From an uncultured Bacteroides sp. (lineage in GTDB: Bacteria > Bacteroidota > Bacteroidia > Bacteroidales > Bacteroidaceae), in NCBI GenBank assembly GCA_900553815.1, contig USEY01000005.1, positions 1-64,000 of the forward strand: a stretch of 64,000 nt of DNA. Reading direction: 5' to 3'. Positions 16,434-58,150 of the stretch are shown here, in pieces. The notes beneath the pieces were generated by a model. It was given only the letters and a program-made list of their open reading frames with translations, made no database searches and was not told where the DNA came from. Numbering within the stretch: position 1 is the first letter of the stretch; each line of letters begins with the position of its first letter. Made by a program: the position numbers and the translations under genes.

Positions 16434-16502
16434 AAGGTGTACACCTTATACATGCAAAGATGTACACCTTATGTATACAGAGGTGTACACTTTATTCATT
16501 AT
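16434..16502. repeat. Intergenic array A: three units, 23-bp period, palindromic core
   Basis: The core GTGTACACCTTAT starts at 16437, recurs at 16460 (one change) and at 16483 (one change), exactly 23 bp apart each time. The first unit forms the perfect 18-bp palindrome ATAAGGTGTACACCTTAT at 16432-16449. It sits in the 390-bp gap (16294-16683) after the DUF6057-like gene. The rest of the gap has no gene I can support. It belongs with the other 22/23-bp arrays of this window by geometry, not by sequence. Confidence 0.85.
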
Positions 16503-16683
16503 AGACACATATGTTTTTTCAAGGATATGCCTGTCTTTCTTCATAAACAGGACCGTGCAGCTTCGGAAAGACCACTGTGAAGGACGGAGGGTGTGGGAAA
16601 TAGCGAACGGACGAGCCGCCGTTTGCTCCGTTTTTTATACCTTTGCACATCATTGGATATAGTAAACAAACGATTGGAATACA

Positions 16684-16812
16684 ATGGCAGACAATTACAT
16701 AGAACGTCAATATGAGCAGTATGAAGCTCGGAAAGCCGCATGGGAAAAGGCGCGTAAGCTGGGGAAAAAGAAAGTGAAAGCTCTTCGCCAGAAGGTGAAA
16801 AAGGCGGAGTAA
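16684..16812 (+). CDS. Small highly basic protein, 42 residues
   Basis: MADNYIERQYEQYEARKAAW opens a 42-codon frame ending in TAA at 16810-16812. About a third of the residues are Lys or Arg, the second half runs KARKLGKKKVKALRQKVKK, and the whole is predicted to form one amphipathic helix. The composition suggests nucleic-acid or ribosome contact, but no family is recognised. A TACCTTTG box at 16638 lies 39 bp upstream. It is too short for routine gene calling, and the regular codon pattern supports coding. Confidence 0.55.
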   Translation: MADNYIERQYEQYEARKAAWEKARKLGKKKVKALRQKVKKAE

Positions 16813-16839
16813 ATCCGGACTCGTCCGCCATAAAATGCT

Positions 16840-16847
16840 TACATTTG
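16840..16847 (+). promoter_or_regulatory. -7 box upstream of the MATE gene
   Basis: TACATTTG followed by CACG, 27 bp before the MATE start codon, fits the Bacteroidetes -7 consensus. The -33 element is not clear. Confidence 0.45.
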
Positions 16848-16873
16848 CACGATTTTTAAGTGCATGAAAGAAA

Positions 16874-18235
16874 ATGAGCAATGTTTATGAGGAACGTCTG
16901 GGGACGGACCGTATGTTGCCGCTGGTGTTTCGAATGGCGCTTCCGGCCGTGGCAGCACAAATCGTCAATCTGTTGTACAATCTCGTCGACCGCATCTACA
17001 TCGGCCATATCCCGGTCATAGGCACTGACGCGCTGGCAGGCATAGGCGTGACTAGTTCTGTCATCATCTTGATTTCAGCTTTCTCTGCCATCGTGGGAGG
17101 AGGGGGTGCGCCGCTGGCCGCCATCGCGTTGGGGCAGGGTGACCGTGTGCGTGCCGGGAAAATCCTGGGCAATGGCTTTACTCTTCTGCTGATGTTCACA
17201 TTGCTCACGTCCGTGACAGCATATATCTTCATGCGGCCCGTCTTGCTTTTCACGGGGGCTTCGGAACATACCATAGGCTACGCCGTCGACTATCTGTCCA
17301 TCTATCTGCTCGGGACGCTGTTTGTGGAAGTATCGGTCGGGCTCAACACGTTCATCAATACGCAGGGGCGTCCTGCCATCGCCATGAAGTCCGTGCTCAT
17401 CGGGGCATTCCTCAACATCGTGCTCGATCCGCTTTTCATTTTTACTTTTGACATGGGAGTGAAGGGAGCAGCATTGGCCACCATCATCTCGCAGGCATGC
17501 AGCGCCGCATGGGTTTTGTCATTTCTTACGTCCAAGCGGGCGTCCCTCCGTCTGGAGCGTCGCTACATGAAGCTGGACAAGCGCATTGTCCTGAGCATCC
17601 TTGCATTGGGCGTGTCTCCTTTCATCATGGCCAGCACGGAGAGTCTCGTGGGCTTTGTGCTCAACACGGGGCTGAAACACTTCGGCGACATCTACGTAAG
17701 TGCCCTGGCCATCATGCAGAGTGCCATGATGTTGGTGAGTGTGCCACTGACCGGGTTTGCCCAAGGATTTATTCCCATCGTGAGCTACAATTACGGGCAT
17801 GGCGACCGCGAACGTGTGAAGTCCTGCTTCAAGGTGGCGCTGACGGTGATGTTTTCGTTCAATTTCCTGTTGATAGTCTTGATGATTCTCTTTCCCCATC
17901 TCGTGGCCTCGGCTTTCACGAGTGATGACGTGCTGATTCAGACCGTGGAACGGGTGATGCCCGTGTTCCTCGGCGGCATGACCATCTTCGGACTGCAACG
18001 TGCTTGTCAGAACATGTTTGTCGCCTTGGGGCAGGCCCGCGTGTCGGTCTTCATCGCGCTCCTGCGGAAGGTGATCTTGCTGGTGCCGCTGGCCATCATT
18101 CTTCCCAAGTTCATCGGGTTGATGGGTGTCTTCGCCGCGGAAGGCATTTCCGACGCTTTGGCTGCCATCTGCTGCACGACCATCTTTGCCATCCAGTTTC
18201 CCCGTATATTGAAAAAGATGCACGCGCCGGCTTAG
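16874..18235 (+). CDS. MATE-family efflux transporter
   Basis: 453 residues with about 12 hydrophobic segments arranged as two related halves, as in MATE multidrug/toxin exporters of the inner membrane. Family marks include the N-terminal PLVFRMALPAVAAQIVNLLYNLVDRIYIGH, GGGGAPLAAIALGQGD, the FINTQGRPAIAMK loop, FAQGFIPIVSYNYGHGD and LGGMTIFGLQRACQNMFVALGQA. Transport would be driven by Na+ or H+; the substrate is not readable. The last 4 bases overlap the convergent DUF3810 stop. Confidence 0.92.
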   Translation: MSNVYEERLGTDRMLPLVFRMALPAVAAQIVNLLYNLVDRIYIGHIPVIGTDALAGIGVTSSVIILISAFSAIVGGGGAPLAAIALGQGDRVRAGKILGNGFTLLLMFTLLTSVTAYIFMRPVLLFTGASEHTIGYAVDYLSIYLLGTLFVEVSVGLNTFINTQGRPAIAMKSVLIGAFLNIVLDPLFIFTFDMGVKGAALATIISQACSAAWVLSFLTSKRASLRLERRYMKLDKRIVLSILALGVSPFIMASTESLVGFVLNTGLKHFGDIYVSALAIMQSAMMLVSVPLTGFAQGFIPIVSYNYGHGDRERVKSCFKVALTVMFSFNFLLIVLMILFPHLVASAFTSDDVLIQTVERVMPVFLGGMTIFGLQRACQNMFVALGQARVSVFIALLRKVILLVPLAIILPKFIGLMGVFAAEGISDALAAICCTTIFAIQFPRILKKMHAPA

Positions 18236-21678: not shown

Positions 21679-21766
21679 CGGTATAAAGGGTAGCCGGGAG
21701 CGGAAAGGAGGGTAGCCGACCACGGAAAGGAAGGCGTCCCGGAGCGGAAAGGAAGCCGTGCAAGCC
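21679..21766. repeat. Intergenic array G: about four units, 22-bp period
   Basis: CGGAAAGGA occurs at 21701, 21723 and 21745, exactly 22 bp apart, with a degenerate fourth unit starting CGGTATAAAGGG at 21679. The unit is purine-rich and, unlike the other arrays, has no strong palindrome. It fills part of the 413-bp gap (21432-21844) between the divergent GNAT and RluA genes. The remainder of the gap contains a TATCTTTG box near 21630 and no gene. Confidence 0.7.
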
Positions 21767-29608: not shown

Positions 29609-30133
29609 TCAAAGTTCGCCATCGTCGTTGCCGTCGTCCGAGCCTCCGCCCGTGCCGGGCGTGCCGCTTCCCTGCGTGTTGTCTCCCGAGAGGCCTTTCA
29701 CCTGCTTGTAGTTTTCCAGCGACGCATACTGCACGCCTTCGTCGTCGACGCCCGCATTTTCAAACGATATGTCGTTCAAGATGGAGGCACGTAGGTCGCT
29801 GTCGAGGGTAAACACGATTTTCACGTTGCGGATCAACCCCGTGTGGAAGTCCATGATGTCGTCCACGCCCTCACTGCCAAACGACACACGAAACGACCCC
29901 AGTCCGGGGATGCGCACACGCTTGCCTTGTATGCTCTGGTTGTAGATGAACTTGCCGATGAGTTTGGCCGCTGCGGCCAGTTCGATGTCGGCCACGGTGG
30001 TGTCTTCCGTCGCCATACGTGTCATGAATTTTTCCTTTACGGGACTTCCCGTCTTAGGCACTGCGTGCCACTGTCCCGGCTCATCGGGCTTTTGGGGGTT
30101 GCGCTTGCGCTGAATTTTGTAAGGTACTGCCAT
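29609..30133 (-). CDS. HU-family DNA-binding protein with disordered Gly/Asp-rich tail
   Basis: 174 residues. MAVPYKIQRKRNPQKPDEP and the ADIELAAAAKLIGKFIYNQSIQGKRVRIPGLGSFRVSFGSEG segment are typical of the Bacteroidetes HU-like group with an extended N-terminal domain. The body is followed by a low-complexity tail rich in Gly, Asp and Ser (SGTPGTGGGSDDGNDDGEL). These proteins probably bind DNA or act as nucleoid-associated regulators; direct evidence is limited. Start at 30133 (MAVPYKIQ). It precedes no close partner. Confidence 0.85.
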   Translation of the reverse strand: MAVPYKIQRKRNPQKPDEPGQWHAVPKTGSPVKEKFMTRMATEDTTVADIELAAAAKLIGKFIYNQSIQGKRVRIPGLGSFRVSFGSEGVDDIMDFHTGLIRNVKIVFTLDSDLRASILNDISFENAGVDDEGVQYASLENYKQVKGLSGDNTQGSGTPGTGGGSDDGNDDGEL

Positions 30134-30232
30134 AATCATCTGATTTAAAAGATTATACATTTGTTATTTCTCTCTGTTGCATTTCCTTTCCGGAGTGTCC
30201 GGCCTGCCCCGAAAGGGAGTATGTAAAGTGGG

Positions 30233-30324
30233 CAGTCGACACATTATAATGTGTCCGATGGAGAGATTATAATGTGTCCGATGGAGAGATTATAATGTCT
30301 CATGCAGACACATTATAATGTGTC
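30233..30324. repeat. Intergenic array B: four units, exact 23-bp period, 18-bp palindromes
   Basis: Units begin at 30233, 30256, 30279 and 30302, each 23 bp. Units 1 and 4 contain the perfect palindrome GACACATTATAATGTGTC. In unit 2 the left arm is GAGAGATTA with an unchanged right arm. In unit 3 the left arm is the same and the right arm becomes TAATGTCTC, restoring most pairing. The array lies in the 480-bp gap 30134-30614 between the HU-like start and the GH43 stop. The other part of the gap has a GC-rich inverted segment near 30505-30545 and no gene. Confidence 0.9.
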
Positions 30325-43097: not shown

Positions 43098-43904
43098 ATG
43101 TACAAGACAACGGGAATGACAGTTTTTATATTCGACTACACCTTCGAGGGATTGCTCTCCTGCGTATTCGAAGCCTACGTGCGACGCGTATTCCCTTCAG
43201 TCCTGCTGGCCGAGGGGTGCCCGTTGCCTCTGTTTCACGATGAAGTGTATAAAGTGGAAACCGACCCCGCAAAGGCCGAACGTGTGTGGAACGGCCTGGC
43301 CAAGAAACTGTCGCCTCACGCCATGACCTGCCTGGCCCAATGTTGGCTGGCCGAAGAAGAAGAAACACCGATGCTGTTGTTCAGATATATATGCAAAGCT
43401 GTAGACGCCCCACGCTCCATCGAAACCAACTTTGCCGACCCTGACGTGCTCGACTTTGCCCGCATGTGGAAACGTGTGGATTGGGAACGTGTACGACTGA
43501 TGCAGTTTGTCCGTTTCCAAAAGGCTGCCGACGGCACTTTCTTCGCTCCCGTCGAACCTGTGAAGAATGCCCTTCCGCTAATCACTGACCACTTCCGCGA
43601 CCGCTTTGCCGACCAGCGTTGGCTCATCTTCGACATGGGGCGCCGCTACGGGTTCTATTACGACCTGCACCAAGTCAGCTATGTCACCTTCGATGAAGAC
43701 TCGACCTCTTCCCATTTCATCACCGGTATGCTCGACGAAAAGCTTGCCCACGAAGACGAGGTCCTTATCCAGCAACTGTGGAAGACCTACTTCAAGGCCA
43801 TCTGTATCAAGGAACGACTCAATCCACGCAAGCACCGGCAAGACATGCCTGTGCGCTACTGGAAATACCTGACGGAGAAGCAACAAAAAACACGGCAGAG
43901 GTAA
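43098..43904 (+). CDS. TIGR03915-family putative DNA repair protein
   Basis: 268 residues starting with MTGMTVFIFDYTFEGLLSCVFEA-type sequence, the usual opening of the family. DUF4130-like blocks include ERVRLMQFVRFQKAADGTFFAPVEPVKNALPLITDHF, RWLIFDMGRRYGFYYDL and WKTYFKAICIKERLNPRKHRQDMPVRYWKYL. It is the invariable partner of the radical SAM protein encoded 3 bp upstream. Start at 43098 is preferred because AAGGAGGA lies 8 bases before it; the ATG at 43116 is a later alternative. Role in DNA repair is inferred from family naming. Confidence 0.88.
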   Translation: MYKTTGMTVFIFDYTFEGLLSCVFEAYVRRVFPSVLLAEGCPLPLFHDEVYKVETDPAKAERVWNGLAKKLSPHAMTCLAQCWLAEEEETPMLLFRYICKAVDAPRSIETNFADPDVLDFARMWKRVDWERVRLMQFVRFQKAADGTFFAPVEPVKNALPLITDHFRDRFADQRWLIFDMGRRYGFYYDLHQVSYVTFDEDSTSSHFITGMLDEKLAHEDEVLIQQLWKTYFKAICIKERLNPRKHRQDMPVRYWKYLTEKQQKTRQR

Positions 43905-43954
43905 GTCCCTGCTGCCGTGCATCATTGCATATTAAGGTAAAAAGCAAATTGTTC

Positions 43955-44935: not shown

Positions 44936-45014
44936 AATTTTCCTTGTTTATATTCGTTTGTCTATGTATGTTTATCTCTCATTCTCAATATGTTTTCTTA
45001 CAGGTACAGGCCTG

Positions 45015-45776
45015 TTACTTCACCCTCATCCGCTCCCATATCCAACGGGGAATCAATTTCCACCCCGCTACCAGCAGACGGTATCGGAAGTCGATGACAG
45101 CAACCCGCTTCTTCTTTTCTATGGCATGCACTATGTGGCGGGCTACCACCTGAGGCTTCATCAGCATGGGATACTTATAGTTGCCATTCAGCAAGTCAGT
45201 ATCCACAAAACCCGGACGAATATCGGTAAAGCGGATGTCTACTCCCTCCATGTGTGCCAACTGTGCCAAAGCCTCTATGTAAGTATTCTGAAAACGCTTG
45301 GTGGCCGAATAAGCCGGTGCCGCCCCCAGCCCCTTGGTACCGGCAATGGAACTGATGACGGCAATATGACCGCCGCCCTGCTGCCTGAAGTAGCGATAGG
45401 CAGCCGTTACCATTCGTGTAAAGCCCTCGGCATTCGTGCGGAGCGTATCCAGTTCCACCGAAGGGTCGAGCGATGGATTCTGATGCCCGATGCCGGCACT
45501 CAGCAGGAAGACATCCATCCCGCCCATGCGGTCGGCCAATGTCTGTAGAAGGGCCGGAGCTTCCGGGCAGGTGACGTCCATTGCCTGAATCTCCGTCTGC
45601 TCGGGAGCCTCGGCCTTCAAAGCCTGTAAAGCCTCCAGCCGACGCCCTGCCACGCCTATGAGCCAGCCCTTGTTTCGGAGCTGAACGGCCACTTCGCGCC
45701 CGATGCCCGAAGTAGCACCTACGATGATGACACGGCGCGATTGCCGCAAATGCTGTTTCTGTATGTGGTCTAACAC
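45015..45776 (-). CDS. Short-chain dehydrogenase/reductase
   Basis: About 253 residues. The NAD(P) loop is IIVGATSGIGREVA. The catalytic Ser, Tyr and Lys lie in ISSIAGTKG and PAYSATKRF. VTCPEAPALLQTLADRMGG and FVDTDLLNGNYKYPM are also SDR-like. Start: a GTG at 45776 has AAGGATAC-type sequence 8 bases upstream; another GTG at 45815 is possible and adds 13 residues. The substrate is unknown. Confidence 0.85.
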   Translation of the reverse strand: MLDHIQKQHLRQSRRVIIVGATSGIGREVAVQLRNKGWLIGVAGRRLEALQALKAEAPEQTEIQAMDVTCPEAPALLQTLADRMGGMDVFLLSAGIGHQNPSLDPSVELDTLRTNAEGFTRMVTAAYRYFRQQGGGHIAVISSIAGTKGLGAAPAYSATKRFQNTYIEALAQLAHMEGVDIRFTDIRPGFVDTDLLNGNYKYPMLMKPQVVARHIVHAIEKKKRVAVIDFRYRLLVAGWKLIPRWIWERMRVK

Positions 45777-45977
45777 TTTCTTGTATCCTTTTATGATTGT
45801 CTGACGTCTGCGCACAAAAGTAACGTTTTTCTGTTACTAAACAGAGAAAAGGCTGATTTATTTATAGCGAGACTGCCAAATGCTCCTTCCCAACCAAGTG
45901 CGGCACATTCAGCTGCCGGGAAAGGCATATACGTTCCCAATAGAATTGAGACTGCAGTAGCACTATACTGATGCCTA

Positions 45978-46108
45978 TTGTGCGAACGCGCAACAGACAA
46001 ATGCACGGGCGCGCAACAGACAAATGCACGGACGCGCAACAGACAAATGCACGGGCGCGCAACAGACAAATGCACGGGCGCGCAACAGGTAAATGCGCGA
46101 ACGCGCAT
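45978..46108. repeat. Intergenic array C: six unit starts, exact 23-bp period
   Basis: GCGCAACAG starts at 45988, 46011, 46034, 46057 and 46080, with a diverged sixth start at 46103 (GCGCATCG). Successive starts are exactly 23 bp apart and the first four units differ by at most one base. Inverted repeats TTGTGCGAACGCGCAA (45978-45993, near-perfect) and ATGCGCGAACGCGCAT (46093-46108, perfect arms) close both ends. It lies in the 600-bp gap 45816-46414 between the divergent SDR and MaoC genes. No other gene was found in the gap. Confidence 0.9.
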
Positions 46109-46254
46109 CGATAATCCGCATACCCGCAAGGCCGCCAACCACAGCCATACGAGTGCAAATAAATACCAGACTCCAAGAAACAGTCCGCATAGGATGAAAC
46201 AAGCCAAACGAACAAAAAAGGTAAATAAACGTTGAAGAAGCCTACCAATAAATG

Positions 46255-46283
46255 TTGTAATGAAAAGTTTTTCCCTATCTTTG
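46255..46283 (+). promoter_or_regulatory. Promoter of the MaoC-like gene
   Basis: TTG at 46255-46257 and TATCTTTG at 46276-46283, spacing 18. The start codon is at 46415, so a leader of about 120 nt would result. The array lies upstream of it. Confidence 0.5.
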
Positions 46284-46414
46284 CCTATCCGAGGAAACCA
46301 AGGCCTTACTTTCCCAACAAATGCAAGGCAAATGTCGCTCCCCCCAAACAACAAAAACAGGCATTAAGCCCAAAACGCAAAGAAACAAACAACTTTATTT
46401 ATATACAGTATTCT

Positions 46415-46879
46415 ATGGAAAAAGTAATTATCAACTCGTACGAAGATTTTGAGAAGCTGGTTGGCCAGCAGATAGGAGTATCGGATTATGTAGAACTGCC
46501 GCAAGAGCGCATCAACCTCTTTGCCGATGCCACGCTGGACCACCAGTGGATTCACGTAGACCCCGAACGCGCCAAAGTAGAGAGCCCCTTCCACAGCACC
46601 ATTGCCCACGGCTATCTCACCCTGTCCATGTTGCCTTACTTCTGGGGACAGATTATCGAAGTAAACAACCTGAAGATGATGATAAACTATGGCATGGACA
46701 AGATGAAGTTCGGACAGGCAGTTCTGTGCGGCCAACGCATCCGCCTGGTGGCATATCTCCAATCGCTGGTCAACCTGCGTGGCGTGGCCAAAGCCGAAAT
46801 CAAGTTTGCCATTGAGATAGAAGGCGCCAAGAAGAATGCCCTCGAAGGAGTGGCCACCTTCCTGTATTACTTCAACTAA
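46415..46879 (+). CDS. MaoC-family (R)-hydratase-like protein
   Basis: 154 residues. The hot-dog hydratase motif FADATLDHQWIHVDPERAKVESPFHSTIAHGYLTLSMLP contains the conserved Asp and His for hydration or dehydration of acyl-thioesters. The length and single fold match stand-alone MaoC dehydratases such as those acting on enoyl-CoA. Start at 46415 (MEKVIINSYEDFEKL); upstream codons are not conserved. The zinc-ribbon-like gene follows after 22 bp. Confidence 0.85.
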   Translation: MEKVIINSYEDFEKLVGQQIGVSDYVELPQERINLFADATLDHQWIHVDPERAKVESPFHSTIAHGYLTLSMLPYFWGQIIEVNNLKMMINYGMDKMKFGQAVLCGQRIRLVAYLQSLVNLRGVAKAEIKFAIEIEGAKKNALEGVATFLYYFN

Positions 46880-46901
46880 TCAGTACAGCCCAAGACGACT
46901 T

Positions 46902-47114
46902 ATGCAAAAGTTACTTTGCCCACAATGCCAGGTAGGCATCTTCTATGTACTCAACGCACAAGGAGACCGCTGTCCGGTCTACGTAACAAAGAACGGAGAA
47001 ATTGTGCCTAAGAACCCAGGCAGTTCGCTCGAAGGATTCAACCTGGACGAGGTCTACTGCATGGGCTGTTCTTGGCATGGAAGCCCCAAGCGGTTACAAA
47101 ACTACAGGCCCTGA
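46902..47114 (+). CDS. Small protein with two CxxC pairs (zinc-ribbon-like)
   Basis: 70 residues. CPQC near the N-terminus and CMGCSWHG near the C-terminus could together bind one metal, with an intervening RCPVYVTKNGEIVPK stretch. The family is not recognised. It lies 22 bp after the MaoC gene on the same strand and is probably co-transcribed. The strong terminator at 47145 follows. Confidence 0.7.
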   Translation: MQKLLCPQCQVGIFYVLNAQGDRCPVYVTKNGEIVPKNPGSSLEGFNLDEVYCMGCSWHGSPKRLQNYRP

Positions 47115-47144
47115 CAAAATAACCGTTGCGGGGTACATATACAA

Positions 47145-47190
47145 GACGAGGATACACGCTCATGACGGTGCGTGTATCCTCGTCTGCTTT
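47145..47190. terminator. Bidirectional intrinsic terminator
   Basis: GACGAGGATACACGC (47145-47159) and GCGTGTATCCTCGTC (47170-47184) form a perfect 15-bp stem, followed by TGCTTTTC on the plus strand. It separates two convergent genes. Confidence 0.85.
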
Positions 47191-47225
47191 TCAGACTACC
47201 CCAGTCTGCCCCCTTCCTACAGCCT

Positions 47226-47678
47226 TCAGTCGCAATCGGCCATCAGTGCCGGAGTGTCGCCTGACTGGCGGCAAGCCACGGGAACGTTTTCCTCATTCAG
47301 TTCATACGTAGTCTGCTTCACATCCTTGCTATAGCTGTGCGTCGACTCGTTCCAGCGGGCATAGCTCATGACTATTTCACCTACCTCATAGCGATAAGTC
47401 ATCTGGAAATAAGGTTTCCATTCGTCCACTGCGCCATCCCACTTGACAGCCGTTTTGCTGACAAGGCGGTCCTGGTTGTCGTAAGCGAACTCATAGCGCA
47501 GATAGTTGTGCAAGTAGCTGCCCTCTTGCTTATAGATGGTGCGCGAAACGACGAGGTTGTTCTTCACTTCTTCGTTGGTGATAAAGTTATCCTGTGCCTT
47601 TGCTTCGATGGTGCCACATAAGCTAACCAATGCCAATACCGAGAATGCCAATGCTCTGAATAAATTTGTTGCTTTCAT
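47226..47678 (-). CDS. Exported DUF3836 protein
   Basis: 150 residues with a signal peptide (LAFSVLALVSLCGTIEAKA). The body has the DUF3836 pattern (RYEFAYDNQDRLVSKTAVKWD, WKPYFQMTYRYEVGEIVMSYARWNESTHSYS), a Bacteroides-enriched family with no assigned function. It is probably periplasmic. Start at 47678 (MKATNLFRALAFSVL). Confidence 0.85.
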   Translation of the reverse strand: MKATNLFRALAFSVLALVSLCGTIEAKAQDNFITNEEVKNNLVVSRTIYKQEGSYLHNYLRYEFAYDNQDRLVSKTAVKWDGAVDEWKPYFQMTYRYEVGEIVMSYARWNESTHSYSKDVKQTTYELNEENVPVACRQSGDTPALMADCD

Positions 47679-47865
47679 AATCTATACGTTTTTAAGTTAT
47701 TGTTTATACATCTGTTGTTACTTCTTCGGACGCCGTCCAATCGGCAGGAAAACAGACTCATTGGAGCTCCTTTCCGTCTTGACCTTGCATCCGCCTATTA
47801 TAAACCAAAAGGCGTGCCAAACAAATAAACGACTGATTATCAACAGAAATCAAGAAACATAGCCT

Positions 47866-48008
47866 GTCCGTTATCGGACAAATGTCCGCTTTTGGCGGAC
47901 ACCAGACACAGGTTTCGGCCCGACAACGCACACATTGGCGGTACAAAGCGGTACAAACAGGCACCAAACAATACAGGCTGCCTGTATATACCATACAAGC
48001 AGCCTGTA
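47866..48008. repeat. Intergenic inverted-repeat region F, part with 22-bp spacing
   Basis: GTCCG/CGGAC inverted repeats occur at 47866 and 47884. The palindrome TACAGGCTGCCTGTA at 47972-47986 recurs with changes as TACAAGCAGCCTGTA at 47994-48008, 22 bp later. The gap 47679-48102 (about 420 bp) has no gene that I can support. It looks like a decayed member of the array family. Confidence 0.45.
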
Positions 48009-48102
48009 CACAGCATATTCCATTGGACGGAACTATCTGAAATGAGACGGCAGTCTGTTCATCTGCACAACTGCCTCCATCCGCATTCCCTTGAAGCAGA
48101 CA

Positions 48103-49734
<1,632 letters not shown>

Positions 49735-49759
49735 CTATTTAAAAAGACTTTTCGGGCGG

Positions 49760-49795
49760 CAAAGATACGGCAAATATATCATAATTCGCTGCCAA
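49760..49795 (-). promoter_or_regulatory. Promoter region of the ABC-F gene
   Basis: On the minus strand TATCTTTG (complement of 49760-49767) and TATATTTG (complement of 49771-49778) are two candidate -7 boxes, with a TTGG at 49792-49795. The spacing to a -33 element is not ideal for either box. Confidence 0.45.
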
Positions 49796-49809
49796 TCTGA
49801 CATAAAAGT
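49769..49809. repeat. 41-bp direct repeat, copy 1
   Basis: This copy and 50183-50223 share 39 of 41 bases (GGCAAATATATCATAA... to ...GACATAAAAGT). The pair flanks array D and lies between the ABC-F and grpE genes. Copy 1 overlaps the likely ABC-F promoter. Confidence 0.85.
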
Positions 49810-49952
49810 GTGTTTCACGGAATCCGACATCACCACATCAGCTCCCAAAGTTCCGAACAGACTACCGAAACCCACACTCCTTGAAGTATAGCTTCTGCCT
49901 ACGCTTGTTCCTCTTCCCCACCCCCTCTCAGAAGGTGCTACAGGCCGCTTTT

Positions 49953-50062
49953 GATAGTAGTACACTCCTCTCATGATAGCAGTTAACTCCCAACGCGATA
50001 GCAGTACACTCCTTACACGATAGCAGTACACTCCCAACACGATAGCAGTTAACTACTATCAC
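49953..50062. repeat. Intergenic array D: five units, exact 22-bp period
   Basis: GATAGYAGT starts at 49953, 49975, 49997, 50019 and 50041, each exactly 22 bp apart. Core variants are AGTTAACT (perfect palindrome) and AGTACACT. The last unit forms GATAGCAGTTAACTACTATC, an inverted repeat with one mismatched pair. The array lies between the divergent ABC-F and grpE genes (gap 49720-50325, 606 bp), inside the two 41-bp repeats. No gene was found in the gap. Confidence 0.9.
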
Positions 50063-50182
50063 GCACCCCCTCAGCGCCCCTCAGAAGGCCTGCTTATTCA
50101 ACCTCTGCCTCAAACGCCTTATCAAGGCGATTTGCCCAGAATGACAATACCCCCAAAAAGGATGGCCTAACCACCAGAATAT

Positions 50183-50223
50183 GGCAAATATATCATAAAT
50201 CACTGCCAATCTGACATAAAAGT
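50183..50223. repeat. 41-bp direct repeat, copy 2
   Basis: The second copy of the segment at 49769-49809, with 2 mismatches. It lies just upstream of the grpE -7 box. It also contains a minus-strand TATATTTG, so it could in principle start a transcript that reads leftwards through array D. Confidence 0.85.
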
Positions 50224-50225
50224 AC

Positions 50226-50233
50226 TACTTTTG
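50226..50233 (+). promoter_or_regulatory. -7 box upstream of grpE
   Basis: TACTTTTG followed by CAGCC fits the Bacteroidetes -7 consensus, about 93 bp before the grpE start. No CIRCE element was seen. Confidence 0.5.
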
Positions 50234-50325
50234 CAGCCTCAAAAACAAAGACTGACACTTTGGCAAAGTTTTTGTAATACGCAGCTATACAACCTTGACA
50301 AGAATAATAAAAAGATATTAATGAT

Positions 50326-50913
50326 ATGGAGCCAAAAAAGAATAACGAAGAGGAATTGCTGAAAGCAGCCCAGAACGAAGCTGAAGCAACAGCCGGGCAA
50401 GAGCAAGAGAACCAAGAAACTAAGCAGGAAGAAGCCCCTGCCAACGAAGCCGAAAAGCAGGAACAGGAGCTTGAAAAGGCACACGCTGCCTTGGAAGAAC
50501 AAAAGGATAAATACCTGCGCCTCTCGGCCGAGTTTGACAACTACCGTAAACGCACCATGAAGGAAAAGGCTGAACTCATCCTGAATGGCGGCGAAAAGAC
50601 CATAACCAGCATCCTGCCTATCGTGGACGACTTTGAACGTGCGCTGAAGAACATGGAAACAGCTACCGACGTGGCTGCCATACGCGAAGGCGTGGAGCTG
50701 ATATACAACAAGTTCATGTCTGTACTGGGACAGAACGGCGTCAAAGTGATAGAGACCAAGGAACAGGCACTCAACACCGACTTCCACGAAGCCATTGCCG
50801 TCATCCCCGCCCCGCAGGAAGAGCTGAAAGGAAAAATTCTGGACTGCGTACAGACCGGATATACCCTGAACGACAAAGTAATACGTCACGCCAAAGTAGT
50901 TGTAGGCGAATAA
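50326..50913 (+). CDS. grpE: Nucleotide exchange factor GrpE
   Basis: 195 residues. An acidic N-terminal coiled coil (rich in Glu, Gln and Ala, about residues 1-70) is followed by the GrpE core: [39 protein letters not shown] and [18 protein letters not shown], then the C-terminal beta domain [41 protein letters not shown]. It promotes ADP release from DnaK in the cytosol. The dnaJ gene follows 17 bp later; dnaK is not in the window. Confidence 0.95.
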
Positions 50914-50929
50914 GAAACACTGTACAGGC

Positions 50930-52099
50930 ATGGAAAAAAGAGATTATTACGAAGTATTAGGCGTAGACAAAAGCGCATCGGCCGACGAAATCAAGAAGGC
51001 CTATCGAAAGAAAGCCATCCAATATCACCCCGACAAGAACCCGGGTGACAAAGAGGCTGAAGAGAAGTTCAAAGAAGCTGCCGAAGCATACGAAGTGTTG
51101 AGCAACCCCGACAAGCGTGCCCGCTACGACCAGTTTGGCCACGCAGGCGTAAGCGGTGCTGCCGGCAACGGAGGTCCGTTTGGCGGATTCAGCGGGGGCA
51201 TGTCCATGGACGACATCTTCTCCATGTTTGGCGACATCTTTGGCGGACATAGCGGCGGAGGCTTTGGCGGCTTCGGTGGTTTTGGCGGTGGCGGTTCGCA
51301 ACAACGCCATTTCCGTGGTTCCGACCTGCGGGTAAAGGTGAAACTGAACCTGAAAGAAATCTCCACCGGAGTAGAAAAGAAATTCAAACTGAAGAAGTAC
51401 GTGACGTGTAGCCACTGCCACGGATCGGGTGCCGAAGGCAACAGCGGCACGGAAACCTGTCCAACCTGTAAGGGAAGCGGTACGGTAATCCGCAACCAGC
51501 AGACCATCTTGGGCACCATGCAGACACGTACCACCTGCCCTACCTGCGGCGGTGAAGGACACATCATCAAGAACAAGTGTAAGGAGTGTGGCGGCGAAGG
51601 CATTGTCTATGGCGAGGAAGTAGTAACCGTCAAGATTCCTGCCGGAGTGGCCGAGGGCATGCAGCTCTCCATGAGCGGCAAAGGAAATGCCGGCAAACAC
51701 AACGGTGTGCCCGGCGACCTGCTGATTCTGGTTGAGGAAGAACCCAACAAGGAACTGATTCGCGACGAGAACGACCTCATCTACAACCTGCTGCTCAGCT
51801 TCCCGACAGCAGCATTGGGCGGTGCCGTAGAAATTCCGACCATAGATGGAAAAGTAAAAGTGAAGATAGAACCCGGTACACAACCCGGCAAGGTTCTGCG
51901 CCTCAGAGGCAAAGGATTGCCCAACGTCAACGGCTATGGCACGGGCGACTTGCTGGTCAACGTCAGCATCTACGTGCCCGAGACCTTGAGCAAGGACGAG
52001 AAGAAAGCGTTGGAGGAAATGGAAAACTCCGACAACTTCCGCCCCAATACTTCCATCAAGGAAAAGATATTCAAAAAATTCAGAAGTCTGTTCGACTGA
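50930..52099 (+). CDS. dnaJ: Chaperone protein DnaJ
   Basis: 389 residues. The J domain carries YHPDKNPGD (HPD motif, about 33-35), followed by a Gly/Phe-rich linker (about 75-125), a zinc-binding domain with four CxxCxGxG repeats ([32 protein letters not shown]) and the C-terminal substrate-binding beta domains. It delivers clients to DnaK and stimulates its ATPase. It is expressed with grpE in one operon. A strong terminator follows at 52122. Confidence 0.97.
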
Positions 52100-52121
52100 C
52101 TTTGAATCACTATCCTATAGC

Positions 52122-52167
52122 AATCCCCGGCTTGTACGAGCATGCACAAGCCGGGGATTTGTTTTTT
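52122..52167 (+). terminator. Intrinsic terminator after dnaJ
   Basis: ATCCCCGGCTTGT and ACAAGCCGGGGAT form a perfect 13-bp stem, followed by TTGTTTTTT. Confidence 0.9.
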
Positions 52168-52216
52168 CAAGTATCACTGATTATTGAATGCTATTTCAAT
52201 GATTCATCCGCAGGCT

Positions 52217-53737
52217 TCAGTCTATTAACGGATTAACCAGTATTTCGTCCATGAATACTTCACTGTCAATAGCAAAAGCCACCTTCAGATAACGTGCCTT
52301 ACAGCATAACTCTCCCAGTCTCACCACGTCAATCCACGCATCATGCCTTGCATTGGGGAAAGTTGGCGCATCCGTTATGCCCAGCAGACTATAGTCTGTC
52401 CCATCCTGCGAGGCAAAAAGATAAACCTTCAAGGGCAATGCTATGCCACGAGACTGATAGTTCAGCATGCGTAACACCACTTCATTGACCATTGACGCCT
52501 GCTTCATGTCCAGCACAATCTCATGATAGCCTTTACCAAGCTTGAGCCAACAGCTGTCTTGCGTACTCTCGCTTGCCATCTTTCCATCGGCCAGCCGCTT
52601 CAAATCGGCACTTCCCATCACCCAATCGGGTGTGGCTGTATTGACCAATCGCCCTGTCAGCGCTGCTTCCTGCAACTTCCAGCACCGGTCACCACGTTTC
52701 CATGCACTATAGTCGTCATAAACCCGTCCTGACCATAAAGGCTGTCCCAATTGATAAACTGAAGACGGATTCTCTACGATACCACAAAGCATAAACGACA
52801 CAATACGGTCGACACCGGCTGCCGAGGCAGCCACCTGCTGTGCCAGCAAACGCGGATAAGCCGCAGGTATCAAGGCAGAAGTACGATCGTTGGTGTTTCC
52901 CTCCCACGTAAAGGTCTCGCAATTAGCCCAGAACTCTATCGGCAGGCGGTTGTGTATCTCACGCAGGCGCTTCCAGTTCTCGCGCAGCTTGACCAACGGA
53001 AATTCCTCGCGAACACAGCCCACTTCATCCTGATAGGCTATAATGTCCACCTTCAGTTGCGACAGGCGCTTTTCAAAATCGGGGTTGTCAAAGTCGGCAC
53101 AAAACAAGCCATAGGGCGAAATCATAATCTTCTTGCCCGGCGTCAGAGAGCGTGCACGGCTTGTCAGTGCATTCACCGCCTCCACCGCATGTTCGGAAAG
53201 TACAGGCCCCAAACAATCTTCAACCGGTAAATACCAACCATAGAGAGCCTTATGTCTGCCATATAGAGAGGCCAGTTCTTCCATCATGTCGAGCTGCCGC
53301 TGCTTGATGGCTGGGTCGCGCAGATTGTCGTCCTGGTTCTTAGCCCATCCTGTACTCATGAAAACTTTCATATCCAGTTGTGCAGCCATGTCCATAATGG
53401 CATCAACCGGACTTTCCTTGCCTTCGGCATAGACATGAGGCATCAGTTTGGACGGATAATAAGCCTCACCTTCGTTGGCAACCGCCATAAACACCAGGTA
53501 TTCAACTCCCATATCCGCCAATTCCTTCACCTTCTGCCGCCACAAGTCCGGGTCGGTATTGTCAAGATACTGTGGATTGGTATATTTGTTGCGCACATCC
53601 TGATAAGCCAGATTTATCCAGGTACCAGTTATAGGTTTAACTGGATAAACATCAGCATTCTGCCCTCTCACCCCACCTACGAGCCAGGCAAACAAGCAGC
53701 ATAAAGCTATCTTCCACTTAACAAATTCACTTCTCAT
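52217..53737 (-). CDS. Exported DUF4434 glycosidase-like protein with C-terminal discoidin-like domain
   Basis: 506 residues with a signal peptide ending near GGVRGQ. The N-terminal 330 residues are a TIM-barrel-like DUF4434 domain (GTWINLAYQDVRNKY, VEYLVFMAVANEGEAYYPS, YGWYLPVEDCLG, MISPYGLFCADF, VDIIAYQDEVGC). From about 365 a galactose-binding/F5-8C-like beta-sandwich follows (CWLKLGKGYHEIVLDMKQASMVNEVVLRMLNY). It is probably a periplasmic or surface glycan hydrolase or binding protein. It is the last gene of the PUL segment on this strand, 24 bp after the DUF5009 gene. Confidence 0.82.
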   Translation of the reverse strand: MRSEFVKWKIALCCLFAWLVGGVRGQNADVYPVKPITGTWINLAYQDVRNKYTNPQYLDNTDPDLWRQKVKELADMGVEYLVFMAVANEGEAYYPSKLMPHVYAEGKESPVDAIMDMAAQLDMKVFMSTGWAKNQDDNLRDPAIKQRQLDMMEELASLYGRHKALYGWYLPVEDCLGPVLSEHAVEAVNALTSRARSLTPGKKIMISPYGLFCADFDNPDFEKRLSQLKVDIIAYQDEVGCVREEFPLVKLRENWKRLREIHNRLPIEFWANCETFTWEGNTNDRTSALIPAAYPRLLAQQVAASAAGVDRIVSFMLCGIVENPSSVYQLGQPLWSGRVYDDYSAWKRGDRCWKLQEAALTGRLVNTATPDWVMGSADLKRLADGKMASESTQDSCWLKLGKGYHEIVLDMKQASMVNEVVLRMLNYQSRGIALPLKVYLFASQDGTDYSLLGITDAPTFPNARHDAWIDVVRLGELCCKARYLKVAFAIDSEVFMDEILVNPLID

Positions 53738-53761
53738 AAACCTGAAATTAAACGTCTGATA

Positions 53762-55162
53762 TCAAGTCCGCCAAAACCACTTGATACGGGTAAAAAAGAT
53801 AGTAACCAGCAGCGACAGGGAAGTAAGCAGCAGCCCTTGCATAAATCCCAACCAGGGATTGGAATGCAAATAAGACAACAAAGGAAACAGCCCGGTCATC
53901 TGCAATACAGGTATCACCAGCAAATCGCCGGCCACATAAGCAATCATCGGATTCTGACCTGACATGACAAGCCACGAGGTAGACTTCCGACAATGAAAAT
54001 AATCGCACAGGATGTGAAATGCTATCAAAGCCATGCAGGCCAGACCTGAAGTAACAAAGAAGTAGCTGAAAGTGGCCACATCCTTCTTTATACCACCTTG
54101 AAACGGCTCCAGACACAAGCCCACCAACAACACGAACGCACCCATATTGAACAGCTCTTTCCACAACGAAGCACTGCCCGCCGATTTGCGCAACAGCCAC
54201 CAACCGGCCAAAAGCAACAGGATGTTCACAACCAGATTGACATGAAGCCACCGGTTATACAGTCCTACCAGATTGCACACAATGATTGCTACCGACAAAA
54301 ACAGAGCAACATAGGCTTTGCGGTCATTCTTATCCTCTCCTTCTTCGTGCCCTCGCCTGTTCATCCATTCCAGTAGGAAGTCACCGGCCAAACTGCCCGG
54401 CAGCACAATGAACAAGTACTTCAAGTAATCGAAACGATACATCCAGGGAACAGGAGTAAAGCCAAACAGAGTACTTGTCCAGGAACCTTCCACCTCACTA
54501 CTCAGTATAATACCGGCCAGCACCAACAGTACTGCAATGCGTGCCCACTTGTTATCCATCGTAAACAAATAAATGATGGAGCCGAAAATGGCCATATTGG
54601 CCAGTAACAGAATAATGATGTTACTGGTATACAAGCTAAACTCACGCCCATCTGCATAGTTCACCGTAAGCAGCATGACTACTGCCACCGCATAGGCTCC
54701 CAGCTTAACTGCCGTATGTCCCCATGCCGGCAAGGGAAAAGGTAAACGCATGAACATGGGAAACAAAACAGCAAAACAGGCTATGGCCAGCAGCCAGGCA
54801 CGCATGTCCTGCGGGCTACTCAGCATATAAGGGTAGAAATGCTGAATGAAGATGGCAAAAAACGTAAGTTGCACGCCACGCTTCAACGCATCATAAACCA
54901 GCCTCAACTCACTCTCTCCCTTTTCTTTCCGTTTACGAATGGAGAACGGGAATGCCGCCCCCATAGCAAACAGAAAAAAAGGAAAGACCAAATCCACCCA
55001 CGTCAGCCCCGGCAATTCGGGATTGAAGGCATGTGTGGGTGGCGGTGTCTGGGCATGGTACATCCATGCGGGCAGAATACTGCCCGCAACGGTGGCCGAA
55101 AGCACCATCGTCAGAATAGCATATCCACGAAGGGCATCCAACGAGTAGGCACGTCCTTTCAT
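53762..55162 (-). CDS. DUF5009 polytopic membrane protein (NagX/HGSNAT-like acyltransferase)
   Basis: 466 residues with about 11 hydrophobic segments. It starts with KGRAYSLDALRGYAILTMVLSATV and LPGLTWVDLVFPFFLFAMGAAFPFS, typical of the DUF5009/HGSNAT-related acyltransferase-like group that transfers acetyl groups onto sugars across the inner membrane. It probably modifies or transports a glycan intermediate of this PUL. Start at 55162, overlapping the preceding GHL10 stop by ATGA, indicates coupled translation. Confidence 0.82.
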   Translation of the reverse strand: MKGRAYSLDALRGYAILTMVLSATVAGSILPAWMYHAQTPPPTHAFNPELPGLTWVDLVFPFFLFAMGAAFPFSIRKRKEKGESELRLVYDALKRGVQLTFFAIFIQHFYPYMLSSPQDMRAWLLAIACFAVLFPMFMRLPFPLPAWGHTAVKLGAYAVAVVMLLTVNYADGREFSLYTSNIIILLLANMAIFGSIIYLFTMDNKWARIAVLLVLAGIILSSEVEGSWTSTLFGFTPVPWMYRFDYLKYLFIVLPGSLAGDFLLEWMNRRGHEEGEDKNDRKAYVALFLSVAIIVCNLVGLYNRWLHVNLVVNILLLLAGWWLLRKSAGSASLWKELFNMGAFVLLVGLCLEPFQGGIKKDVATFSYFFVTSGLACMALIAFHILCDYFHCRKSTSWLVMSGQNPMIAYVAGDLLVIPVLQMTGLFPLLSYLHSNPWLGFMQGLLLTSLSLLVTIFFTRIKWFWRT

Positions 55163-56505
55163 CGGCAAGCTCCTCCTTCTCTCATGCCTTCTTCCACCTC
55201 TTTCCAAAGATTCTTACTGATGATATGTACGATGTCAAACACCATCAGACCATCTGAAAGCTTCAGGTTCATGGCTATTGTCTTCGACAGTTTGGCCGGA
55301 TTGTCATAGAACTGGTCAACCAGGATTCCACCCATGAACTTATTATCTTTCAATATAGTGCGCAGGTGCTGGCACGAACCTTCCACACAATACCATGTAC
55401 CCGACTGTGCCTGGCTGTCTGTTTCGTTCCAAACGCTATGACCATTCTTCTGATATTCTTCTATCGTAATGTCCGTGTAGTAATTGCCGGTAGCATACAG
55501 GTCAATCAGTTCGGCATAGCCATAGTTTTTATACTCAGGAGTAGCCCAATCAAAATCCTTGCTGGGGTCGTAGTTTTTGCTGGCAAAGTTTACGCCCACC
55601 TCATAGTAAGAAGGATACCAGGCACCTGTATATGTACCAAACGAAATGTCGGGATTCACAGACTTTACTTCCTTACGGGCCAAAGCCATAAAATCGGTAA
55701 TTGTCTTTGTACGCCACTCAAACCACTTCAAAGCCAGCTTGCCACGTTTGGGCACAAACTTTCCGTCTGCTGTCTTTTCCCAAGTCAGGATGTCCTGCGG
55801 AAAGTTCTCTACCTTAGCGCCAATATACTCTTCAAACTTGCTGCGCGAAAGCGGTGAGAAGTCGGCACTGATGCCATCATAGCGTACACGGTCGAGCATC
55901 AGTCCGTCCAAATCGGGATATTTTCCAACCAACTCTTTCAGCACATTAAGAATATGCGTACGATATTCCTCGTTGAGCGGATTAATCATGGCCCCATACT
56001 TATGTTTTTCCTCCATGATAGAGATAATCCCTTTTTCAGGATTGTAAACCATGGACGCCCATTCCGGATGGCCGCTGTAGACCATACCACGGTCAAAATA
56101 ATTGTGACCGGCACAGAATACATTCAACGAAGCATGTACCTGTAATCCAAGCTTATGTCCCTGCTGAATGAAATAGCCCAGATAATCAAAGTCGCCACGC
56201 TTAGCACCATTCCACTCTTCCATACGTGGTGCATACTTGCTGTCATAGAGTACTTCACCGGTAATGGGACGTACGTCGACAATTGCATGTGTGAACCCGA
56301 GTGACTTTATCTTTTGCAAATAATAGTCAATGGAGTCTTTCTGATTGAAACGGCCAAAGTTGGCTTCGGCATCAAACCACATCAGTGCCGGCTTGACTGG
56401 CGTTTCTGACACTTCGGCCTTTTTCTTGGTTCCACCGCAAGAAGTCAACACAAGCATGCCCGAGGCAAGCAGTAAAAGAGACTTTTTCAAACTTAGTTTT
56501 TTCAT
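55159..56505 (-). CDS. GHL10-type (family 10-like) glycosyl hydrolase lipoprotein, copy 1
   Basis: 448 residues. The lipobox LVLTSCGG marks a lipoprotein. The barrel carries ALMWFDAEANFGRF, THAIVDVRPITGEVLYDS, LGLQVHASLNVFCAGHNYFDRG and LDGLMLDRVRYDGISADFSPLSRSKFEEYIG, the usual catalytic-region pattern of the GHL10 hydrolases (unrelated to classical GH10 xylanases). It probably acts on an undefined glycan in the periplasm or at the surface. It resembles the second copy at 61016-62422. Its end overlaps the DUF5009 gene. Start at 56505 (MKKLSLKKSLLLL). Confidence 0.85.
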   Translation of the reverse strand: MKKLSLKKSLLLLASGMLVLTSCGGTKKKAEVSETPVKPALMWFDAEANFGRFNQKDSIDYYLQKIKSLGFTHAIVDVRPITGEVLYDSKYAPRMEEWNGAKRGDFDYLGYFIQQGHKLGLQVHASLNVFCAGHNYFDRGMVYSGHPEWASMVYNPEKGIISIMEEKHKYGAMINPLNEEYRTHILNVLKELVGKYPDLDGLMLDRVRYDGISADFSPLSRSKFEEYIGAKVENFPQDILTWEKTADGKFVPKRGKLALKWFEWRTKTITDFMALARKEVKSVNPDISFGTYTGAWYPSYYEVGVNFASKNYDPSKDFDWATPEYKNYGYAELIDLYATGNYYTDITIEEYQKNGHSVWNETDSQAQSGTWYCVEGSCQHLRTILKDNKFMGGILVDQFYDNPAKLSKTIAMNLKLSDGLMVFDIVHIISKNLWKEVEEGMREGGACR

Positions 56506-56540
56506 TGGTATATACATGTTTTATTGATTAATACTTGTTT

Positions 56541-57956
56541 CTATTTTATGACTGCCCGAAAAGGAGCGGCCGGAAGTCCGGCGTTGTTTTGCAAAGTTCC
56601 GACCTTGTAGTTGCGAAAACAATAGCGCACTTCTACCGGACTCGGAACAGAATCGTTCCATACCTTTACCTTCGAACTTCCACCGATAATCTCTGCCTTG
56701 GCAGGATGTATATTACCTGCCTCGTCAACAAGCTCAAAGCCTTCTACCAACTGATTCTCGGGTCCAAGGCCATCTTCACCAAACTCAAAGTCTACCTCAA
56801 CCTGCCGGCCATTCATCTGACATTGCCGATAGATGGGACCTGAATAGGTAAAACCCTCCAAACCATAAGTACGTGCCAAAGCCCAATAAGCCAGACGCTC
56901 ACCTACCTTAATCTTATAAGGCGGATGGATAAACTTCTCGCTGCCGGCATCAGTGGTAATCACCATGCCTGTGCCGGGCACTTCGTGCATCAGTTCAAGC
57001 TGACATTGTCTGAAGAGAGCCCAATCGAACTTATCACTGCCTTCCGATTGCCAGGGAGCAATCTGGACATAATAGAACGGAAGTTCGGGTGACTGGAAAA
57101 AAACGCGCCACTCGGCTACCATGGCAGGAAAAAGTTTCTTATAGAGAGCTGGCGCCGGGCTGTTGGCCTCCCCCTGATACCAGATGACTCCCTTCACGGG
57201 AAAACCTTTCCACGGGTTGACCATGGCATTCCATAGCAGAGTCGGTGTGCCGGCCGGCCAACCGAATTCTGTAGCCTGCACATCGGGCAGCTCTACCTCA
57301 GCAAACTGCTCCAACGTCTCACGGCTCATCCAGGCTTCAATTTTCGAAGCACTCCAGGCACAATGTATCAATCCTACAGGTACATCAAGCGTACGTTGAA
57401 GTAAATCGCCGAAGAAATATGCAGTAGCACTGAAGTTTGCTACTTCCTTAGGCGAAAGTTCCGTCCAATATCCGTCAATACCCTCAGTCTTCGGAGTAGT
57501 GCTCCAGGCATTCTTCACAGTGTAGAGCCTCAGAGGACGTTTGGCATTAGCCGACACAATATAGGGCTGAGAGCCATAGACAGGCTGACCACGGAAACCT
57601 TTGACAGGCATCTCCATATTGGACTGACCGGAGCAGAACCAAACTTCACCTATCAGAATATTCTTTAATACCAACTTGTCACCATCGTTAAAGGTAATGG
57701 TATAAGGGCCACCATAGGCAGGAGTCTCCAGCGTCAGTGTCCACTGTTGCCCTTCCTGACGGTCGGCATAGACTTTCTTGCCGTTCCACGAAGCTACGGC
57801 ATACACTTTCTTACCTGTTGTTGACTGACCTGTGAAAACAACTTTTGATTGCTGCTGCAGCACCATACCGTCACCCCAAATGGAGGGGAGTGTTACTTTG
57901 GCATAGAGAGCTGACCACAGAAGCAGCAAGCTAAACAAACTAACTAATCTTTTCAT
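56541..57956 (-). CDS. Sialate O-acetylesterase-like (SASA/SGNH) protein
   Basis: 471 residues with a signal peptide (KRLVSLFSLLLLWSALYA). The SASA catalytic Ser lies in GEVWFCSGQSNMEMPV. IHCAWSASKIEAWMS, GVIWYQGEANSP and ITTDAGSEKFIHPPYKIKVGERLAYWAL (catalytic Asp/His part) follow. These enzymes remove acetyl esters from glycans before depolymerisation. It sits between the GHL10 copy 1 and array E, on the same strand as its neighbours. Confidence 0.88.
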   Translation of the reverse strand: MKRLVSLFSLLLLWSALYAKVTLPSIWGDGMVLQQQSKVVFTGQSTTGKKVYAVASWNGKKVYADRQEGQQWTLTLETPAYGGPYTITFNDGDKLVLKNILIGEVWFCSGQSNMEMPVKGFRGQPVYGSQPYIVSANAKRPLRLYTVKNAWSTTPKTEGIDGYWTELSPKEVANFSATAYFFGDLLQRTLDVPVGLIHCAWSASKIEAWMSRETLEQFAEVELPDVQATEFGWPAGTPTLLWNAMVNPWKGFPVKGVIWYQGEANSPAPALYKKLFPAMVAEWRVFFQSPELPFYYVQIAPWQSEGSDKFDWALFRQCQLELMHEVPGTGMVITTDAGSEKFIHPPYKIKVGERLAYWALARTYGLEGFTYSGPIYRQCQMNGRQVEVDFEFGEDGLGPENQLVEGFELVDEAGNIHPAKAEIIGGSSKVKVWNDSVPSPVEVRYCFRNYKVGTLQNNAGLPAAPFRAVIK

Positions 57957-58010
57957 ATCTTCCTTTCCTTTTTACATACTCATTTACACGGTTCTTTCAT
58001 CTTAAGAGTA

Positions 58011-58150
58011 AAGTTTCAGATTGGTTTCATTGGATGAAACCGGTAGTTTCAACGGATGAAACCATTAGTTTCAACGGACGAAACCAGTAGTTTCAACGGA
58101 TGAAACCGTTAGTTTCAGCAGATGAAACCATCAGTTTCAACGAATGAAAC
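58011..58150. repeat. Intergenic array E: seven unit positions, exact 22-bp period
   Basis: Units start at 58011 (left half degenerate), 58033, 58055, 58077, 58099, 58121 and 58143 (partial), each exactly 22 bp apart. The core is GATGAAACC-N4-AGTTTCAACG, in which GAAAC and GTTTC form an inverted repeat with five variable bases between them (CGGTA, CATTA, CAGTA, CGTTA, CATCA). The array lies in the 319-bp gap 57957-58275 inside the PUL. No gene was found in the gap. Confidence 0.92.

Follow-up and report, generated by a model that had tools for sequence, protein, structure and literature searches.

Why should sequences that have nothing in common be repeated at one and the same interval in the intergenic DNA of a Bacteroides? 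The question is raised by a stretch of 64,000 nucleotides (contig USEY01000005.1 of an uncultured Bacteroides sp.; here called the window), in which an earlier note described seven intergenic gaps with tandem arrays (A to G) of a fixed 22- or 23-bp period and unrelated units. That note ascribed the shared period to a common generating process or to a selected geometry, such as protein sites on one face of the DNA or evenly spaced RNA hairpins. Among these possibilities, a selected geometry of two helical turns fits the data best, and evenly spaced RNA hairpins are not supported as the common theme. We judge it somewhat probable that the arrays are local representatives of intergenic elements that are largely species-specific, are built from predicted DNA-protein sites two turns apart, and have a selected geometry. 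Where copies can be compared, in two genomes, there is good support for the view that geometry takes precedence over sequence.

A 22-bp period is shared across the Bacteroides clade

All seven gaps hold the tandem arrays ascribed to them. Tandem Repeats Finder (TRF) recovered the arrays, and the best 30-base self-match at lags of 15-40 fell at lag 22 or 23 in every gap, with 22 to 30 of the 30 bases matching; none of 300 shuffles per gap (dinucleotide-preserving or, as a fallback, plain) equalled the observed self-match, even for the short array F.

Intergenic self-matches were then counted in three sets: 80 loci of the Bacteroides clade (1.39 Mb), 400 kb of genome G009, and 400 kb of genome G001, the nearest relative of the window among the genomes compared. 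At lag 22 these sets gave 149, 64, and 52 self-matches, respectively, against all-lag medians of 11, 2, and 1.5, while shuffled gaps gave 5, 0, and 0; secondary peaks stood at lags 44 and 66. Among 237 de-duplicated intergenic tandem repeats from the Bacteroides-clade sets, 91 had a period of 22 and 135 a period of 21-24, in a count that omits loci L081-L108, L169, L170, and L193 and that arrays B and G enter twice, from the window and from the G001 sample. An array of period 21-24 or a multiple occurred in 41 of the 80 loci, and one of period 22 or a multiple in 29. With the lag-22 excess in all three sets and 91 of 237 repeats at 22, the shared period is found clade-wide, and the distribution of periods, rather than being broad, has a sharp mode at 22 in these samples (as distinct from complete genomes). 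A smaller second peak of intergenic tandem repeats lay at period 7 (24 of 237), with 13 more at period 14.

Beyond the genus, lag-22 self-matches numbered 0 in 80 kb of G016, 6 in 80 kb of G017, and 5 in 60 kb of G018. There were none in samples of four other families (20-80 kb each), and two in 100 kb of E. coli. G017 also contains an 88-bp tandem repeat of 3.6 copies (L177:17473-17790), 88 being 4 x 22. G021, from another family of the order (L182-L185, 80 kb), shows peaks at lags 42, 21, and 84 and 21-bp units such as AGTTATCATTCATTGTGGAAA, possibly a 21-bp counterpart.

Spacing is maintained while sequence drifts

The strongest evidence is that spacing is maintained while sequence drifts, as seen in family F1 of G009 and in the lattice of the array G family. 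Four families recur in G009: F1 (AAACAATATTGTTT and AAACAC..GTGTTT), F2 (AAGTATNATACTT), F3 (CGGACNNGTCCG), and F4 (of the CAGTTCCACGCCGTGGGA type). When neighbouring cores no more than 60 bp apart were scored, the distance was 22 bp for exact F1 cores in 56 of 59 pairs (two of the remainder at 44 and one at 23), for F2 cores in 30 of 30, for F3 cores matched by a strict pattern in 12 of 14, and for the F4 cores of two arrays in 10 of 10. The sequence between the cores is far from constant: 40 of 51 F1 spacers are distinct, with a mean difference of 4.24 of 8 positions, and 18 of 26 F2 spacers are distinct.

The F1 and F3 arrays of G009 sit in a larger frame, the 3' domain of which ends in sequence like TTTGACATTTTGTCA; in 800 kb of this genome the array lay 170-215 bp upstream of the 3' domain in 21 of 22 copies. 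In the 34 of 41 elements that allowed the measurement, the distance between the 5' motif and the end was 484-488 bp in nine, 495-498 in 22, 506-508 in two, and 519 in one. Counted from the 3' end, the cores fall into two phases about half a period apart, and they stay in register with an element end some 300 bp distant, across diverged sequence. The ends themselves are conserved and form TGTCA-like inverted repeats. No target-site duplication was seen by eye at these ends, and conservation along the element had no clear periodic peak. As for an autonomous partner, no frame of at least 150 aa with clusters on both sides was present in the samples, and a search with the end motif returned no flanked gene.

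The G009 3' domain had no copy in the other fetched loci, the window included. A sequence model of it, for which no more than 150 candidates were scored in any genome, matched G009 142 times (about 110 places after merging of opposite-strand echoes) and G001 once, and had no match in 13 further genomes of the genus. In the lone G001 copy (L215, E 1.1e-10), two GGAAAGGA cores lie at 307 and 329 from the end, no more than 2 bp off the F3 phase; TRF called no 22-bp array there. To judge from this one copy, a single frame seems to be occupied by unrelated units in the two species, at almost equal phase.

Within G009, 7 of the 20 stretches sampled at 0-0.4 Mb contained the CGGACNNGTCCG core, versus 0 of 20 at 1.40-3.13 Mb (L109-L128 and L149-L168), and F3-type elements also occur at up to 1.36 Mb; the family may be confined regionally to a GC-rich part of the chromosome. 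A division into chromosome domains was considered for F1 and dropped: exact F1 had been listed in one half of G009, but F1 pairs occur in the other half, and the pattern was an artefact of listing.

The family of array G provides the second line of evidence. Its exact core, CGGAAAGGA, occurs 90 times in 400 kb of G001, compared with 17 times in 800 kb of G009, 25 times in 1.39 Mb of the 80 loci, and not at all in 100 kb of E. coli. When this core was combined with CCGACCA in every orientation, 198 of the 200 pairs lying 5-70 bp apart in G001 fell on a single 22-bp lattice, whereas scrambled controls (20 motif pairs) each yielded 0-4 pairs. The window's own array G fits this lattice. From the offsets it follows that two-fold axes recur at 11-bp intervals, about which a core can be flipped; a row of symmetric protein dimers would permit such a flip about a fixed axis and slippage would not generate it, which favours a selected geometry. 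Cores that keep to one lattice in both orientations also offer a means of distinguishing selection on geometry from simple tandem duplication.

Families differ in how far they have spread, some apparently being confined to a single locus and others dispersed in high copy. For array G, at least 39 additional places were found in G001 when 40 of 232 candidates were scored, and a single array of its type in G009 (L165) makes the family largely, not wholly, species-specific. Array B has one other locus in G001 (contig C232) and none in nine other genomes. No second place was found for array A in G001 (40 of 232 candidates scored) or in the fetched loci, and no match to array C among the fetched loci; array E had a single weak match across ten genomes. 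The suggestion that dispersal plays no part is not supported, given G with its 90 cores and B with its second locus.

Dyad symmetry is enriched among the units

Inverted repeats had been reported within the units of arrays A to F, and this was borne out for some of them. Dyad symmetry of the unit was significant in A (p 0.015) and F (p 0.03), array E has GTTTCA..TGAAAC arms, and the first unit of B contains a perfect 18-bp palindrome. The G001 copy of B reached p 0.02; the window's own B consensus lay outside the 25 lowest dyad p values listed. The within-unit hairpin score was low for C, D, and G. Arrays E and D fell outside the dyad test at periods 21-24, because their best TRF rows have periods of 66 and 44, respectively.

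When units were collapsed by genome across the clade, dyad symmetry (p<0.05 versus shuffled units) was present in 24 of the 95 distinct units at periods 21-24, compared with 2 of 31 units at other periods and 9 of 94 coding repeats. Inverted repeats are therefore enriched over shuffled sequence in these samples, which fall short of complete genomes. These observations indicate that dyad symmetry is enriched and not universal, and that the period is the commoner trait.

A candidate array of protein sites on one face of the DNA

The reading that we favour supposes that each element consists of short candidate DNA-protein sites, with cores of about 9-19 bp that are often dyad-symmetric. Placed two helical turns (about 22 bp) apart, such sites would align bound protein dimers on one face of the DNA, where the protein might assemble cooperatively. 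The elements would spread by transposition or gene conversion, the number of units would change by recombination or slippage between them, and the unit sequences could turn over as the binding or mobilising protein comes to differ from lineage to lineage. A bolder and less probable reading is that intergenic sites, as many as hundreds per chromosome and with a different sequence in each species, seed a lattice of sequence-specific protein whose two-fold axes recur at 11-bp intervals, so that the geometry is inherited while the letters are replaced. If so, the lattice would be akin to a DNA-binding system, either chromosome-organising or selfish, with a fast-changing recognition code.

One spacing rule in many unrelated families points to a single constraint behind seemingly species-specific junk, and the constraint can be tested through its prediction of a protein that binds cores spaced in steps of 22 bp. 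A factor of that kind in relatives of Bacteroides, which are dominant gut bacteria, might organise the chromosome or mobilise many small elements.

Several points weigh against a selected two-turn geometry. The density of arrays is uneven: 15 of 27 isolate loci (each no longer than 21.6 kb) have none, as does 40 kb of G010, and 120 kb of G011 has few. Some repeats have a period of 21, 23, or 24, which makes 22 a mode and not a constant across families, and dyad symmetry is significant in just 24 of 95 units. With one mismatch permitted, the F1 distances in G009 equal 22 in 72 of 94 cases, and with a loose short-core F3 pattern in 12 of 51; these looser patterns admit stray matches. Copies of a family share descent, so that the counts of exact spacing are not independent; length drift would be visible despite this kinship, and almost none is seen. 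The lattice offsets were taken from the same data that they describe. Ordinary slippage would equally give the change in array A described below, and no binding protein, transposase, or transcript was found.

Alternative explanations

Of the alternatives, the one that survives best is a mutation bias, in which the replication or repair machinery of the clade duplicates segments some 22 bp long, above all at palindromes, and leaves the arrays as neutral minisatellites; we regard it as rather unlikely. One array did change by whole units: at array A, G001 has one unit and is exactly 46 bp (two units) shorter than the window, the genomes being 99% identical there. Such variation was found in A and not in B, in which unit number is equal in the window and G001, or in G, which is identical in both across 121 bp. 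Units are nearly identical in some arrays (such as C), as if recently duplicated, and copies are too few in most sampled families to reveal selection. Duplication does not, however, account for exact spacing between highly diverged spacers, for cores lying in both orientations on one lattice, or for a phase maintained over about 300 bp of diverged sequence.

We consider it improbable that the arrays act as RNA, with transcribed units forming evenly spaced or stacked hairpins for transcript stability or for an RNA-binding protein. In predicted folding of A, B, C, D, E, and G, arrays A, B, and E scored z values of -5.3 to -8.9 relative to shuffles (B on the plus strand only) and D scored -5.2 on the minus strand and -2.2 on the plus strand, so that four arrays fold far better than shuffled sequence on at least one strand. 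The signal in C was modest (z -1.9 and -3.0), and G folded no better than shuffles (z 0.4 and 0.7). Palindromes, moreover, fold on either strand regardless of role, and arrays are also found in divergent gaps. Matches to Rfam in the window and seven G009 loci were to tRNAs only, the 3' domain of the G009 element has no consensus RNA structure, and the inner mismatches of F1 cores are A-A, C-T, and T-T instead of G-T. With no folding signal in G and significant dyad symmetry in 24 of 95 distinct units at periods 21-24, hairpins are not supported as a common theme.

Less probable again is the proposal that the arrays are operators of ordinary regulators, that is, clusters of transcription-factor sites at two-turn spacing such as those of the hybrid two-component regulators (HTCS) of Bacteroides, for which predicted motifs are direct repeats with sites on average 21 bp apart (PMC3878776, accessible part). 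This proposal meets three difficulties: families run to tens to hundreds of copies, arrays have three to six units and not two, and convergent gaps, which lack promoters, are as rich in arrays as other gaps or more so. With genes taken as plain open frames of at least 150 aa and gaps limited to 100-1500 bp, 28 of 246 divergent gaps held an array, as did 52 of 413 tandem and 33 of 177 convergent ones; presence in gaps of every orientation would be expected of a feature of the DNA and suits neither a promoter nor a transcript end.

Finally, it is very unlikely that the arrays are repetitive extragenic palindromic (REP) sequences spread by a Y1 (REP-associated tyrosine, RAYT) transposase, which would likewise be intergenic and high in copy with palindromic or alternating units, since G009, whose families received the closest study, has no Y1_Tnp match and only two of seven genomes searched have one, that of G001 being weak (1.2e-5).

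The arrays of the window and its probable join

The seven gaps had been taken to come from one genome, but the window looks like two species joined near position 37,655. Positions 13,940-37,655, the stretch covered by the comparison, are 99% identical to contig C188 of G001, and the match breaks off at the end of a tRNA-Trp gene (join zone 37,580-37,660). To the right, positions 42,000-60,000 match G001 in eight longer pieces at 65-77% identity, scattered over several contigs, and additionally in one 44-base piece at 91%. The top identity of 44,895-58,300 among 31 genomes is 82%, and the best longer match right of the join among fetched loci is below 86%. The sign of the GC skew flips at about the same position, and the right half holds core genes such as grpE. 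The likeliest account of these matches is that the contig is probably chimeric, in which case arrays A, G, and B and arrays C, F, D, and E are to be counted as coming from two genomes.

Left of the join, array A (16434..16499; TRF 23 bp, 2.9 copies) consists of three 23-bp units around the palindrome AAGGTGTACACCTT, between a DUF6057 gene (15166-16293, +) and a MatE gene (16874-18235, +); Pfam gave the assignments of the genes beside arrays A, G, B, and E and of grpE beside D. Array G (21679..21764; TRF row 21687-21753, 22 bp, 3.0 copies) has 22-bp units with the CGGAAAGGA core at 21701, 21723, and 21745 and one CCGACCA at 21716, and lies between genes for an L,D-transpeptidase (-) and a pseudouridine synthase (+). 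Array B (30233..30324; TRF 30243-30298, 23 bp, 2.4 copies) is built of 23-bp units around ACATTATAATGT and is followed by a GH43 gene (30615-32378, -). The gene on its other side (29609-30160, -) codes for a DNA-binding protein of the HU-HIG family.

Right of the join, array C (45987..46107; TRF 23 bp, 5.3 copies) comprises five 23-bp CGCGCAACAGACAAATGCACGGG units in a divergent gap and is followed by a MaoC-like gene (46415-46879, +). Array F, earlier placed at 47866-48008, is indeed a two-unit 22-bp repeat around ATACAGGCTGCCTGTAT, and its actual span is 47971..48017 (TRF 22 bp, 2.1 copies). Array D (49953..50063; TRF 22 bp, 5.0 copies), with five 22-bp units of the form GATAGCAGTACACTCC..., occupies a divergent gap between a gene that we label ABC-F-like from its translation (48103-49719, -) and grpE (50326-50913, +). 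Array E (58020..58150; TRF 22 bp, 6.0 copies) has six 22-bp units; the genes on its two sides are those of a SASA esterase (56541-57956, -) and of a DUF4434/metallophosphatase protein (58276-61014, -).

The gap upstream of the ABC-F-like gene was also considered as a positional hot spot. Several species carry dissimilar units there. A clear array (at least 23 of 30 matches at lag 22 or 23) was present in 7 of 78 scorable loci (the remaining 2 of the 80 lacked a gap to score), and a few others had weaker arrays; this is no excess over the 113 of 836 gaps in general, which were counted differently; the idea was rejected.

Comparison with known systems

The arrays are not CRISPR arrays: their whole period is only 21-24 bp, and the spacers between F1 and F2 cores measure 8-9 bp. 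The iterons of plasmid replication origins are repeats of about 22 bp bound by protein on one face of the DNA, with one origin per replicon, whereas the arrays described here are spread through chromosomes and have many unrelated units.

With HTCS/AraC-type operators they share sites two helical turns apart on one DNA face, the average spacing of 21 bp having been interpreted as two helix turns by the authors of that work; in the accessible part of their paper the site pairs lie near polysaccharide genes, whereas our arrays occur in all kinds of gap (PMC3878776). An HTCS operator was rejected as an identity for the arrays, which lie in divergent, tandem, and convergent gaps alike, D between the ABC-F-like gene and grpE.

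Bacterial interspersed mosaic elements (BIMEs) and REP elements are similar in that they number hundreds of copies between genes and form module mosaics that alternate in orientation at regular spacing; BIMEs have gyrase, IHF, and DNA polymerase I as protein partners (PMC2817692). They differ in unit and spacing, and in the Y1 transposase, which was not found in G009; the G-family cores share the both-orientation lattice but are not hairpin palindromes.

The earlier note knew of no named family with these properties, yet BrickBuilt is a close published analogue. As described in the accessible part of its report, BrickBuilt is a 23-nt minisatellite inside a miniature inverted-repeat transposable element (MITE) of Porphyromonas gingivalis, with a leader and a tail that end in terminal inverted repeats; strains differ at one locus by 184 nt, or eight units, and strain W83 is cited there as having 22- and 23-nt repeats (PMC4596501). 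No other close analogue was noticed in a literature coverage that excluded most subscription journals, and the accessible parts of PMC5771137 and PMC3733652 held nothing closer. To the extent of that description, BrickBuilt and our arrays have in common spacer-free tandem units of 22-23 nt, an intergenic location, several to many copies per genome (here for arrays G and B), restriction to a species and its near kin, and differences in steps of whole units (between BrickBuilt strains, and here for array A). The G009 elements likewise consist of a central array flanked by conserved ends; in the window, a search with the G009 3' domain as query found no ends resembling a leader or tail. The likeness is drawn from the published description, and two differences stand out: here many unrelated unit families share one period, and G-family cores lie in both orientations on a lattice. 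On the best reading, the elements thus appear to resemble BrickBuilt or BIMEs as largely species-specific, interspersed sequences, and neither these systems nor the HTCS motifs explain many unrelated families on one spacing.

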